A DNA stretch of 64,000 nt from Haloprofundus halophilus (GTDB lineage: Archaea > Halobacteriota > Halobacteria > Halobacteriales > Haloferacaceae). Shown here piece after piece: positions 2,974 through 42,058 of this stretch. The stretch lies in NCBI RefSeq assembly GCF_003439925.1, contig NZ_QQRR01000001.1, forward strand, positions 1,550,001 to 1,614,000, given 5' to 3'. The translations under genes were made by a program, and so were the position numbers. Below the pieces are notes generated by a model. That model had not been told where the DNA came from, searched no databases, and worked only from the letters and a program-made list of their open reading frames with translations. Every line of letters begins with the position of its first letter. Positions within the stretch are counted from its first letter, which is position 1.

Positions 2974-3756
2974 ATGGAGCTCTCTTGGAGCGTCGACCAC
3001 GCCGATGGCATCTCGTTCGTGACCGTCCGAGTGACCAACGACGCGCGTGTCGACCAGCGTATCCGCGTCGAGAACCGACTCGCCGGACCGGTGTTGCCGC
3101 CGCGACGTGCCGGCGTGCCGGAGGCCGGATGGGACGACAGCGGGTACGAGACGGTCGTCCCCGCCACGGAGTCCGCTTCCGTCGGCTACGCCTGCCCGGC
3201 AGACGCCGACGAACCGCCGGTCGAACTCGTCGAAGCGGGTCGTGTAGACGGACCCGAGCGTCGAGACGCGACGCCGACGGCCGAAGAGGCTCTGCGACGG
3301 TGTGGCGTCGCACGTCCGCCGCGCGAAGCAGTCACGGTTCCCGAACCGAACGACGGGAGCGGCGACGAGCACCGGGTCGACGGGCATCGGGTCGACGAGC
3401 GCCGAGTCGACGAGCACGGAACCGACGGACGTGAACGGAGAGGTCCGGAACGGGACGCTGGCCGCGACGGAGCGGAGCGTCGGGCGACTCCGGCCGAAGT
3501 TCCCGAACCGGTCGACGTGTGGTTCGACGGAGTTCGGGCGCGCATCGGACGGGCCGAGACGCTCACCGGCGCGTCCGTGGCGGAAGCGACGACGACGCTC
3601 GAAACGCTCGGCGGCCTCGGGGCCGCGGAGCGACTGCCCGCGCGACTCGAACGCGACGCCGCGGCGTTGCGCGCGATTGCGACGAACGCCGAGCGACTTG
3701 CCGACAGGGTCGAGTCGACGGACGTTCCGGTCGAAGCGCTCGGGAGGTTGGCGTGA
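2974..3756 (+). CDS. Haloarchaeal protein with charged repeat linker, upstream of MinD-like ATPase
   Basis: A 260-residue protein. The ATG at 2974 is preceded 25-30 bases upstream by TTTAAATA (2944-2951), so it probably starts a leaderless message of its own in addition to read-through. The N-terminal about 90 residues look like a beta-sandwich (ISFVTVRVTNDARVDQRIRV). A hydrophilic linker (about residues 130-155) contains short repeats of the type RVDxHRVDERRVDEH. The C-terminal about 90 residues are helical (DVWFDGVRARIGRAETL onward). It overlaps the MinD-like gene by four bases. Function unknown. Confidence 0.8.
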   Translation: MELSWSVDHADGISFVTVRVTNDARVDQRIRVENRLAGPVLPPRRAGVPEAGWDDSGYETVVPATESASVGYACPADADEPPVELVEAGRVDGPERRDATPTAEEALRRCGVARPPREAVTVPEPNDGSGDEHRVDGHRVDERRVDEHGTDGRERRGPERDAGRDGAERRATPAEVPEPVDVWFDGVRARIGRAETLTGASVAEATTTLETLGGLGAAERLPARLERDAAALRAIATNAERLADRVESTDVPVEALGRLA

Positions 3757-4445
3757 TTCTCGCCGTCGTCGGCGGAAAGGGCGGCGTCGGCAAGTCGACG
3801 GTCGCGTACAACCTGACCGCAGCCCTCGACGAAGGTGGCGAGCGGAGACGGAGTCTCGTCGTCGACGCCGACCTCGGGATGGCCGACCTCCCGTCGAAGC
3901 GGGGCCCCGACCTCCACGACGTGCTGGCGGGACGCGCCGACCCGCTCGAAGCGGTTCGAGGTGGACCGGTCGACGTACTCGCGTGCGGGCGGTCGCTGGC
4001 CGGCGCGCGGGCGGCGGACCTCGCGTCGCTGTCGGCGGCGCTGGAACCGGTCGAACGCGAGTACGGAACCGTCGTTCTGGACTGTCCGGCGGGGATGCGC
4101 GCCGACGTGGGAGTGCCGCTGGCGCTGGCGGACGCGTGCGTCGTCGTCGCCTCGCCGAAACCGTTCGCGCTCGCCGACGCGGTTCGGAGCAGAGCGCTCG
4201 CCCGCGAACTCGGTTCGGGCCTCGCCGGCGTCGTGTTGAACCGCGTCGTCGACGCCGCGCCCGAACGGGCCGTCGGCCGAGCGTTGGGCGCGCCCGTCGC
4301 AACCGTCCGCGCGGACCCGCGAGTCGGCGAATCCGTCGAGAGCGAGCGCCCCGTCGTCGCCGCCGCACCGGAGAGCGAGGCGGCGGGGGCGTTCCGGCAG
4401 GTCGCGGGCGCGGTTCGCGCCTGTAACCGGTCCTGTAGGCGGTGA
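3753..4445 (+). CDS. MinD/ParA-family P-loop ATPase
   Basis: A 230-residue SIMIBI-class ATPase. It opens with the deviant Walker A motif GGKGGVGKST (residues 7-16), with the signature lysine, and has the switch/Walker B-like segments VVDADLGMADLP and VVLDCPAGMRADVG. Family members position proteins or DNA, or assemble surface structures, through ATP-dependent dimerisation. The GTG start overlaps the stop of the preceding gene by four bases; starts further upstream in this frame (to 3519) would lie inside that gene and are rejected. No C-terminal amphipathic membrane-targeting helix is obvious. The specific cargo is unknown; the three co-transcribed unknown proteins upstream are the best partner candidates. 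Confidence 0.9.
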   Translation: MILAVVGGKGGVGKSTVAYNLTAALDEGGERRRSLVVDADLGMADLPSKRGPDLHDVLAGRADPLEAVRGGPVDVLACGRSLAGARAADLASLSAALEPVEREYGTVVLDCPAGMRADVGVPLALADACVVVASPKPFALADAVRSRALARELGSGLAGVVLNRVVDAAPERAVGRALGAPVATVRADPRVGESVESERPVVAAAPESEAAGAFRQVAGAVRACNRSCRR

Positions 4446-4466: not shown

Positions 4467-5330
4467 TCAGTCGCGCAGGTCGTAGTAGGTGCTCCGGAGC
4501 GTGACGGGCGTGACGCCCGCGACGTCGGCCGCCTCCTGTTGTGTCACCTGCGCGTCGAATTTCCGGGCGGCCGTGTAGAGACAGGCGGCGGCGACGCCGC
4601 CGGGATTTCGACCCGCCGCGAGACCGCTATCGTGGCTCTCGGCGGCGAGTTCGCGGGCGCGGCGCTCCACCGCCGAGTCGAGGTCGAGCTCGCTCGCGAA
4701 CCGGGGGACGTACTCCGCGGGCGAGATGGGGCCGACCGGAAGCCCGAGGTCGCGGTTGAGGGCGTCGTACGCCGCGCCGTGTTCGTTCTCCGTCGCGCGG
4801 GCGACGTCGAGCACTTCGTCGACGGTCCGCGAGACGCCGGCGACGCGGCAGGCGGCGTAGACGCACGCCGAGGAGAACCCCTCCAGCGAGCGTCCGCGAA
4901 GCAGGTTCTCGTTCTGCGCGGAGCGAAACAGCGAACAGGCGTGGTCGCGGACGCGGTCCGGTAGCGACAGCGCGCCGGTCACTCGCCGGATTTCGGTGAA
5001 CGCGTACACCTGATTGCGCTCGCGCTTCGAGGAGATGCGCGCGCGGTTGTGCTGTCGACGCATCCGCGTCAGACGGCGACGCTTACGGCCTTTGACTCGG
5101 GTCGACCGGCCGATTTCGGTAGTGAGGCCGCGGTCGTGTCGCGAACGCGTCAGCGGCGCGCCGGTCCGCTCGGGGTTCGTCTCGTCGTCGGCGAACGACC
5201 GCCACTCGGGGCCGTGGTCGATGTGGTCGGCGGCGACGACGAGGCCGCAGTTCGCGCACACGGTCTCGCTGCTATCCTTCCGCAGTCGGCCGTCGCATTC
5301 GGGGCAACCGGTCGCTTGTGTCTTGCTCAT
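4467..5330 (-). CDS. tfb: Transcription initiation factor IIB (TFB)
   Basis: A 287-residue archaeal TFB that bridges TATA-bound TBP and RNA polymerase. The N-terminal zinc ribbon is visible (CPECDGRLR near residue 9 and CANCGLVVAADH near residue 26), followed by the B-reader/linker region (ADDETNPERTGAPLTRSRHD) and a basic stretch, and then two cyclin-like repeats (about residues 100-190 and 195-285). Haloarchaea carry several TFB paralogues with different promoter preferences, so this may be a specialised one. A strong TATA box 24-32 bases upstream indicates a leaderless mRNA. It is divergent from a predicted HTH gene across a 27-bp palindrome that may control one or both. Confidence 0.95.
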   Translation of the reverse strand: MSKTQATGCPECDGRLRKDSSETVCANCGLVVAADHIDHGPEWRSFADDETNPERTGAPLTRSRHDRGLTTEIGRSTRVKGRKRRRLTRMRRQHNRARISSKRERNQVYAFTEIRRVTGALSLPDRVRDHACSLFRSAQNENLLRGRSLEGFSSACVYAACRVAGVSRTVDEVLDVARATENEHGAAYDALNRDLGLPVGPISPAEYVPRFASELDLDSAVERRARELAAESHDSGLAAGRNPGGVAAACLYTAARKFDAQVTQQEAADVAGVTPVTLRSTYYDLRD

Positions 5331-5353
5331 ACTCGAAACTCGGTCCCGATGGA

Positions 5354-5362
5354 GTATTTAAA
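5354..5362 (-). promoter_or_regulatory. TATA box of tfb
   Basis: Read on the minus strand the sequence is TTTAAATAC, centred 28 bases before the tfb ATG, giving a leaderless transcript. Confidence 0.75.
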
Positions 5363-5402
5363 CACGGGAGAAATCGGCGGGAATCGGAGTGTGACGGCTC
5401 GA

Positions 5403-5429
5403 AGAGCGTATCGGTCACCGATACGCTCT
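5403..5429. promoter_or_regulatory. 27-bp perfect palindrome between tfb and the divergent HTH gene
   Basis: Two 13-base arms (AGAGCGTATCGGT and its exact reverse complement) flank a single C at 5416. It lies roughly midway between the TATA boxes of the two divergent genes, about 40 bases from each. Such symmetry and placement suggest a binding site for a dimeric regulator; an RNA hairpin role is less likely because neither expected transcript includes it. Confidence 0.65.
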
Positions 5430-5463
5430 CGTTCTGTTTTATTGAATACTCTCCTACGTCGAT

Positions 5464-5472
5464 AACTTTTAG
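5464..5472 (+). promoter_or_regulatory. TATA-like box for the gene at 5500
   Basis: AACTTTTAG lies 28-36 bases before the ATG at 5500, consistent with a leaderless or nearly leaderless message. Confidence 0.5.
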
Positions 5473-5499
5473 TGTGGAGGGGAAGCACCTGCCGCCAGA

Positions 5500-6015
5500 A
5501 TGGGACTGGCTGACATCGCCGCGGGCATCGAGGTGACCGCCGAGCAGGACGCGCGGGGCGTCCCCACCGTCGACGACACCGGCGTCGACCTCCGAGAGCG
5601 GTTCGACGCGCACGCCGAGGCGCTCCCGTGCGACCCCGACGCGGCCGCAACGGTGTTCGACGCGTACGCGGGCGGCGCGAGCGTTGGCGAGAGCGCACAC
5701 GAGGCGGGCGTCGCGCCGATGACCGCCGCGAAGACGCTACACCGCTGCGGCGTGTCAGGCGTGACGCCGCTGAGTCCGACGGCACGGGAGATTCTCCGGG
5801 ACTGGCTCGACGGCGAACTCCCCCGGACGGAGGCGCGGACGCTCACCGGAGCGTCGAAGACGGAGTTCGCGCTCGCGGCGTACGTCGAGACGCACGACCC
5901 GGTCGAGGAGTTGGCCGACGCGACGGCGGGCGAACTGACGCCCGGCACGAACGCGACGGTGGCGAAGCGGGACGCGCTGGCGGAGACGATGAGCGACGCG
6001 AGCGAGTTCTTCTGA
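5500..6015 (+). CDS. Predicted HTH-containing haloarchaeal protein divergent from tfb
   Basis: A 171-residue protein of unknown function. Residues about 48-85 (ATVFDAYAGGASVGESAHEA then GVAPMTAAKTLHRCG) have the helix-turn-helix spacing seen in sigma-region-4 and HTH_23-like domains, and a second helical pair follows (ILRDWLDGELPRTEARTL, SKTEFALAAYVET). No catalytic motif or membrane segment. Its position opposite tfb across a palindrome makes it a candidate autoregulated DNA-binding protein; this is inference. It ends five bases before the stop of the convergent MinD-like gene. Confidence 0.75.
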   Translation: MGLADIAAGIEVTAEQDARGVPTVDDTGVDLRERFDAHAEALPCDPDAAATVFDAYAGGASVGESAHEAGVAPMTAAKTLHRCGVSGVTPLSPTAREILRDWLDGELPRTEARTLTGASKTEFALAAYVETHDPVEELADATAGELTPGTNATVAKRDALAETMSDASEFF

Positions 6016-6019
6016 GTCG

Positions 6020-6778
6020 TTACTTCGTCAACCGCCGCAGCGACGACGGGAGATAGCCGTCGACGCCGGCGAGAACGCTCTGCTCTTCGAATTCGAGGTC
6101 GAGTTCGGTCGCGACGACCACCTCCGCGGCGTGAGCGACCGTCGGCGCGAACTCCCCGGAGGCGTCGAGCGACGCCGGGAACGACGCGTCGGTGGCGGGG
6201 ACGAACGCGTCGGCCGCCTCGAACCGCCCGCGAGTGGCGATGGTCGCGTGGCTCTCGATACCGAGGTCGGCGAGTCTGTCGCGGATGCGACGGTTCGCCT
6301 CCGCGCCGCGGTCGGTCGCGGGTGTAACGGTGACGACCCGTTGGGCAGCGTCAGCGGCCGCGATAGACTGGTTGGCGGCGACCGGCGGCACGTCGAGGAG
6401 GACGTGGTCGAAGGCGTCGGCGGCCTCGGTGACGCGCGTCTCGAATCGACGAGCGGCCTCGGCAGTCTTCGCGCGGGCGAAGCGCTCGAACGGCGCGCTG
6501 GCGGGGACGCAGGCGACGCGTCCGGCGACGGCGTCGGGGAGCGGCACGTCGACGAGTCCGGCCTCTAACGGCGTCTCCGGTTCGACCAAGAGCGTCGTCA
6601 TGTCGGTGTCGAGTCGGCCGTCGAGGTAGTCAGCGAGTCCCTGCGTCGCGAACGCGGCGTCGAGTATGGTGACGTCGCGGCCGTCGTTTGCGAGCGTCGC
6701 CGCCAGTTCGAGCGTCGTCCGCGTCGTCCCCGCGCCGCCGGTCGCCCCGACGAGCGCAGCGGAGACCGTGTCAGACAT
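6020..6778 (-). CDS. MinD/ParA-like P-loop protein with altered Walker A
   Basis: A 252-residue protein with the overall pattern of MinD/ParA ATPases: N-terminal loop GATGGAGTTRTTLELAATLA, DVTILDAAFATQGLADYLDG after strand two, and the Walker-B-like FDHVLLDVPPVAANQS. The loop aligns with KGGVGKTT but both lysines are replaced by threonine, with an arginine two positions later, so normal ATP hydrolysis is doubtful. The ATG at 6778 (MSDTVSAALVG) is preferred over one 21 bases upstream because it starts directly at the first strand. Possibly a regulatory partner of true MinD proteins. The family is clear; the role is not. Confidence 0.85.
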   Translation of the reverse strand: MSDTVSAALVGATGGAGTTRTTLELAATLANDGRDVTILDAAFATQGLADYLDGRLDTDMTTLLVEPETPLEAGLVDVPLPDAVAGRVACVPASAPFERFARAKTAEAARRFETRVTEAADAFDHVLLDVPPVAANQSIAAADAAQRVVTVTPATDRGAEANRRIRDRLADLGIESHATIATRGRFEAADAFVPATDASFPASLDASGEFAPTVAHAAEVVVATELDLEFEEQSVLAGVDGYLPSSLRRLTK

Positions 6779-6872
6779 ACGCCGAGTTGGTGCCGCCATC
6801 CGGCTAAAAATCTACGGTTCTCTGGACAGTTCGACTCGGAAGCGAGTTTCGCCGCGAGACGGCGCGACCGAC

Positions 6873-41967: not shown

Positions 41968-42058
41968 TCTGGTCTCTCCTGCGCGCGCAGTTTACAAGTG
42001 CCTACCGGGAACCGGCGAGTTTCGGCACGAACTCGTCTCGTCGGTGACACGGGTCGGA

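Follow-up and report, generated by a model that had tools for sequence, protein, structure and literature searches.

A conserved palindromic operator at a fixed distance upstream of a haloarchaeal TFB gene and its probable DUF7858 regulator

Based upon sequence comparison, the 27-bp palindrome that lies between a TFB gene and a divergently transcribed DUF7858 gene in Haloprofundus halophilus is well supported as a true conserved operator, and the identification of this TFB gene as its target is likewise well supported. The DUF7858 protein is probably a helix-turn-helix (HTH) regulator that binds this operator, a role to which the co-occurrence of the two points. Haloarchaea carry many TFBs, which are thought to select promoter sets, and to our knowledge little is known about how the haloarchaeal TFBs are themselves controlled. 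For one TFB, in about 60% of the haloarchaeal genomes sampled, the results presented here provide a defined operator together with its target and a candidate regulator, and they offer a testable function for DUF7858, a family that has none. DUF7858 is present in the genetic model Haloferax volcanii, which served as a control. The features of this locus, numbered within the 64-kb stretch of DNA that was analysed (referred to as the window), are as follows:

4467..5330, minus strand: TFB gene, 287 aa, with Pfam TFIIB repeats and a zinc ribbon
5333..5349, minus strand: second conserved promoter element, TCGGGACCGAGTTTCGA, at about -18 to -2 between the TATA box and the TFB start, from promoter comparison
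5355..5362, minus strand: strong TFB TATA box (minus-strand sequence TTTAAATA), separated from the palindrome edge by 40 bp
5403..5429, no strand: palindrome (operator), a perfect 13+1+13 inverted repeat
about 5466..5472, plus strand: weak TATA-like element of DUF7858, from the window sequence and a logo of DUF7858 promoters
5500..6015, plus strand: DUF7858 (PF25257) gene, 171 aa, the proposed operator-binding regulator, function unassigned in Pfam

The start codons of TFB (5330, minus strand) and DUF7858 (5500, plus strand) are separated by 169 bp, within which the palindrome at 5403-5429 reads AGAGCGTATCGGT-C-ACCGATACGCTCT, consisting of two 13-nt arms that are 100% complementary and a 1-nt spacer. 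The original prediction had described a near-perfect palindrome midway between two divergent leaderless promoters. The first part of this description was an understatement, all 27 bp being perfect, and the remainder agrees with the distances of 72 and 70 bp to the start codons of TFB and DUF7858, respectively, and with the TATA boxes at 5355-5362 and about 5466-5472, both genes looking leaderless from their sequences. No second perfect repeat having 13-nt arms and a spacer of 0–8 was found in the window, for which the chance expectation is 0.06 per 64 kb (based upon first-order Markov copies of the window). In the 3.47-Mb genome only one copy of the 27-mer was found at ≤3 mismatches, and a looser consensus led to just one additional place, at 3 mismatches. 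The runner-up operator-like site in the window (41997-42023), which scored 10.8 bits vs 30.5 bits for the palindrome, is probably due to chance. MinD/ParA-like ATPase genes are present on either side of the TFB/DUF7858 pair (window positions 3756-4442 and 6020-6799).

Seed sites for the operator family were taken from 16 named genomes, loci from the coded genomes being added afterwards, and the resulting consensus is rAACsTACCGGT-n-ACCGGTAsGTTy. When a matrix built from the 16 named loci alone was applied to held-out divergent TFB/DUF7858 promoters, 87 of 89 scored higher than the 99.9% point obtained with shuffled promoters, and 83 of 89 higher than any of the 8,900 shuffles; the two that fell short (L096 and L120) carry symmetric variants of the palindrome. 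Where a full DUF7858 gene lies beside TFB, the lowest training score was reached in 102 of 103 distinct loci, by a matrix trained on most of the loci scored and with identical 160 bp upstream of DUF7858 counted once, the remaining locus being the symmetric variant L096. The expectation that the palindrome would be conserved in relatives keeping the gene pair was thus borne out. The positions of the two arms also vary in step: at half-site position 6 (n = 108), the pairs C/C and G/G were observed 49 and 43 times, respectively, as against 9 mixed C/G pairs and 7 others. In one locus (L270, from G127) the core is altered in both arms together (ACCTAT/ATAGGT), and its DUF7858 closely resembles the one in a sister genome with the usual core. 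Over the entire set of 391 genomes, the consensus at ≤1 mismatch was found in 139, in 133 of them as a single copy.

The position of the palindrome indicates to which of the two genes it belongs. The distance from its edge to the TFB TATA box is 40 bp in 94 of the 104 distinct loci and 39–42 bp in all of them, when ties are taken towards 40 and duplicate loci removed; without the tie rule and with duplicates included, it is exactly 40 bp in 100 of 114. The distance from the palindrome to DUF7858, on the other hand, varies from 44 to 276 bp. Additionally, in seven genomes from five genera (G160, G274, G228, G314, G036, G128, and G141) where the two genes are apart, the palindrome was found upstream of TFB and was absent upstream of DUF7858, and hence DUF7858 could act in these genomes only in trans. 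As the spacing is fixed to TFB only and the palindrome follows TFB when the genes separate, the operator is that of TFB, and the suggestion of a shared bidirectional switch for both promoters was not sustained. Further DUF7858 loci without an adjoining TFB were seen in G305 (whose genome has no such TFB), G345 (where TFB lies on a different contig), and G261 (a weak match). Comparison of the TFB promoters also revealed the second conserved element between the TATA box and the start (TCGGGACCnAGTTTCGA), which matched at 12 or more of its 17 positions in 57 of 103 promoters bearing the operator vs 1 of 56 DUF7858-negative promoters and 1 of 23 paralogue promoters, and which bears no resemblance to the palindrome.

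The TFB of the window belongs to the TFB/TFIIB family, matching PF00382 in two stretches (E 9.4e-42) and PF08271 (E 4.4e-12). Its score of 276.8 bits is under the curated cut-off of 384 for the NCBIfam TFB subfamily PRK00423, and it is therefore a divergent TFB. Ten TFB matches are present in the genome, the next best paralogue being 51% identical, and the simple global switch envisaged in the original prediction would thus act through one of about ten TFBs. In a protein tree (69 operator-bearing, 31 DUF7858-negative and 18 paralogue rows) the clade of the window TFB is separate from the TFB paralogues sampled. The sampled TFBs from DUF7858-negative genomes share one clade with the operator-bearing TFBs, apart from the paralogues (SH-aLRT 99).

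DUF7858 was found in 242 of the 391 genomes sampled from the class and in 49 of 86 genera, and its divergent linkage with TFB spans families. The consensus at ≤1 mismatch occurs in 138 of the 242 DUF7858-positive genomes vs 1 of the 149 DUF7858-negative genomes (G174, picked from the table by eye as the sole such match), where the copy lies away from TFB. Of these 149 genomes, 120 have kept a TFB at E ≤ 1e-95, whereas the other 29 lack one at this threshold. Promoters were fetched for 56 of the 120, the rest being covered by the 1-mismatch scan only, and two of the 56 scored with the held-out matrix, both being degenerate; these sites (L275 and L237) come from two species of one genus without DUF7858 and are found at the same place upstream of TFB. 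None of the 23 TFB paralogue promoters scored with this matrix. As the DUF7858-negative genomes mostly keep the TFB but not the palindrome, the TFB outlives the operator, and the operator rarely occurs without DUF7858. Matches to a 3-mismatch pattern in the DUF7858-negative genomes were mostly chance-like among the matches listed and were set aside. The independent losses are few (2 on the starred branches and 4 on the best tree), so that a sign test cannot reach significance; the paired test, in which palindrome and DUF7858 were given the same label, shows only this scarcity of independent changes. A tblastn search of plasmids detected no DUF7858, and the plasmid TFBs were of <60% identity. 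In two genomes of the window's genus (G055 and G099; loci L116 and L117) and in G239 (L121), only 3' remnants of DUF7858 were observed; these three genomes also lack a TFB at E ≤ 1e-95, and the TFB and DUF7858 unit seems to have been lost together from them.

The protein encoded by the neighbouring gene matches DUF7858 over residues 1–168 with 263 bits, compared to a gathering cut-off of 27. Its AlphaFold model consists of two three-helix units with a confident core (mean pLDDT 80, pTM 0.67), in which residues 73–82 could form a recognition helix; the conservation of these residues is 3.47 bits vs an average of 2.90. A weak match to HTH_28 was found in 32 of 105 DUF7858 members (best E 2.8e-4), and many of the weak partial fold matches of the model are to HTH proteins. 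Fold searches with the model gave no Foldseek match at E ≤ 0.001 and VIA Z ≤ 4.9, a PDB profile search gave two weak matches (E 0.3), and no paper on DUF7858 or the operator was found in open PubMed Central. The idea of the original prediction that this neighbour is a dedicated regulator thus gains from its co-occurrence with the palindrome and from the weak HTH signal, which make it the candidate binder.

In the reading that we favour, and which we consider probable, a putative DUF7858 dimer binds both half-sites and regulates TFB from a fixed upstream position. The DUF7858 protein, probably as a dimer, would occupy the two 13-bp half-sites of the palindrome; TFB transcription would be set from this fixed site, whose centre lies about 85 bp upstream of the start and whose nearer edge is 40 bp above the TATA box; and the dimer would make stereospecific contact with the initiation complex. 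Such contact is suggested by the rigid spacing and by a location outside the expected footprint of the TBP/TFB initiation complex, and it is from this that we infer the sign, activation of TFB being somewhat likelier than repression. The fixed 40-bp distance from operator to TATA box offers a well-defined setting in which to examine how an archaeal regulator makes contact with the initiation complex. More tentatively, and with less than an even chance in our judgement, DUF7858 may be the founder of a family of haloarchaeal activators that act stereospecifically from upstream and gate a single general transcription factor, where DUF7858, the operator, the second element and TFB form one accessory regulatory unit that is gained or lost together.

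The main alternative, less likely than not, is that DUF7858 binds the palindrome but represses TFB, e.g., by assembling into a higher-order complex or forming a loop to the element between the TATA box and the start, with relief by a signal. The location of the second element at about -18 to -2 and its enrichment in operator-bearing promoters would fit this, whereas the 40 bp separating the palindrome edge from the TATA box makes simple occlusion of TBP/TFB unlikely, and the second element is unlike the palindrome. The binder could instead be another HTH regulator of similar distribution acting on the same operator and target, with DUF7858 a linked gene of other function. This is in keeping with the covariation of residues and half-sites, in which DUF7858 columns performed no better than TFB columns; however, DUF7858 is still present where it is unlinked from an operator-bearing TFB, it has an HTH-like signal (HTH_28 and the model), and its divergent linkage with TFB recurs across families, and we regard a different binder as unlikely.

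Autoregulation by TFB through the palindrome, with DUF7858 being incidental, would account for the operator following the TFB gene, and TFBs are DNA-binding proteins. Nevertheless, it is very improbable in view of the persistence of the TFB clade without the palindrome in most of the DUF7858-negative genomes examined, and a symmetric site of 27 bp does not resemble a BRE. Although the complementary arms make an RNA stem possible, the palindrome lies between divergent promoters, outside both of the apparently leaderless transcripts, and its position and sequence are conserved; the probability that it is a hairpin, a terminator or a chance occurrence is thus negligible. Among these possibilities, regulation of TFB by a DUF7858 dimer bound at the palindrome remains our preferred reading.

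HTH regulators that are encoded divergently from their targets and act at palindromic operators are a known arrangement, which the present locus resembles in that a small putative HTH protein is encoded next to the target, with an operator in between. It differs in that the spacing to the target TATA box is fixed, at 40 bp, and in that the promoter of the regulator itself no longer has the operator once the genes part. RosR controls tfbB in Halobacterium salinarum via a palindromic site (PMC4287449). The two cases are alike in involving a sequence-specific haloarchaeal regulator (here the putative binder DUF7858), a palindromic site and a TFB gene target; however, RosR has many targets and the consensus TCGnCGACGAGnTCGnCGAC, whereas the operator described here has a ACCGGTnACCGGT core and usually occurs once per genome. 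The possibility that 5403-5429 is itself a RosR site was rejected, as by inspection it does not conform to TCGnCGACGAGnTCGnCGAC as given there (PMC4287449). Another relevant case is TfbA of NRC-1, a TFB of a single-copy family, whose deletion affected heat tolerance as well as about 18% of genes (PMC2121645). One member of this family was reported in each of five haloarchaea, and tfbA homologues in 74 of 80 isolates (PMC2121645, PMC4230888), a breadth close to the 362 of 391 genomes observed here, the latter being an upper estimate in which every DUF7858-positive genome is counted as TFB-bearing. Breadth and single copy, the only points of likeness, suggest that the window TFB is TfbA-like; the difference is that the available portions of these papers name no dedicated regulator of tfbA (PMC2121645, PMC4230888).

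Two other observations concern individual lineages. The DUF7858 gene is split over two frames in L119 (G340) and L120 (G158), in both cases near residue 87, and also in L228 (G141), which may reflect sequencing error, decay or something else; in G141 the operator is nonetheless intact. Lastly, one genus carries 4–7 operator copies, with seven in G140 (L197, L203, and L220-L224) and four in G032 (L198, L204, L225, and L226). Two of these are found at matching places in both species, viz. L220/L226, near a metallo-hydrolase-like gene, and L221/L204, and the extra operators of this genus possibly constitute a lineage-specific regulon.
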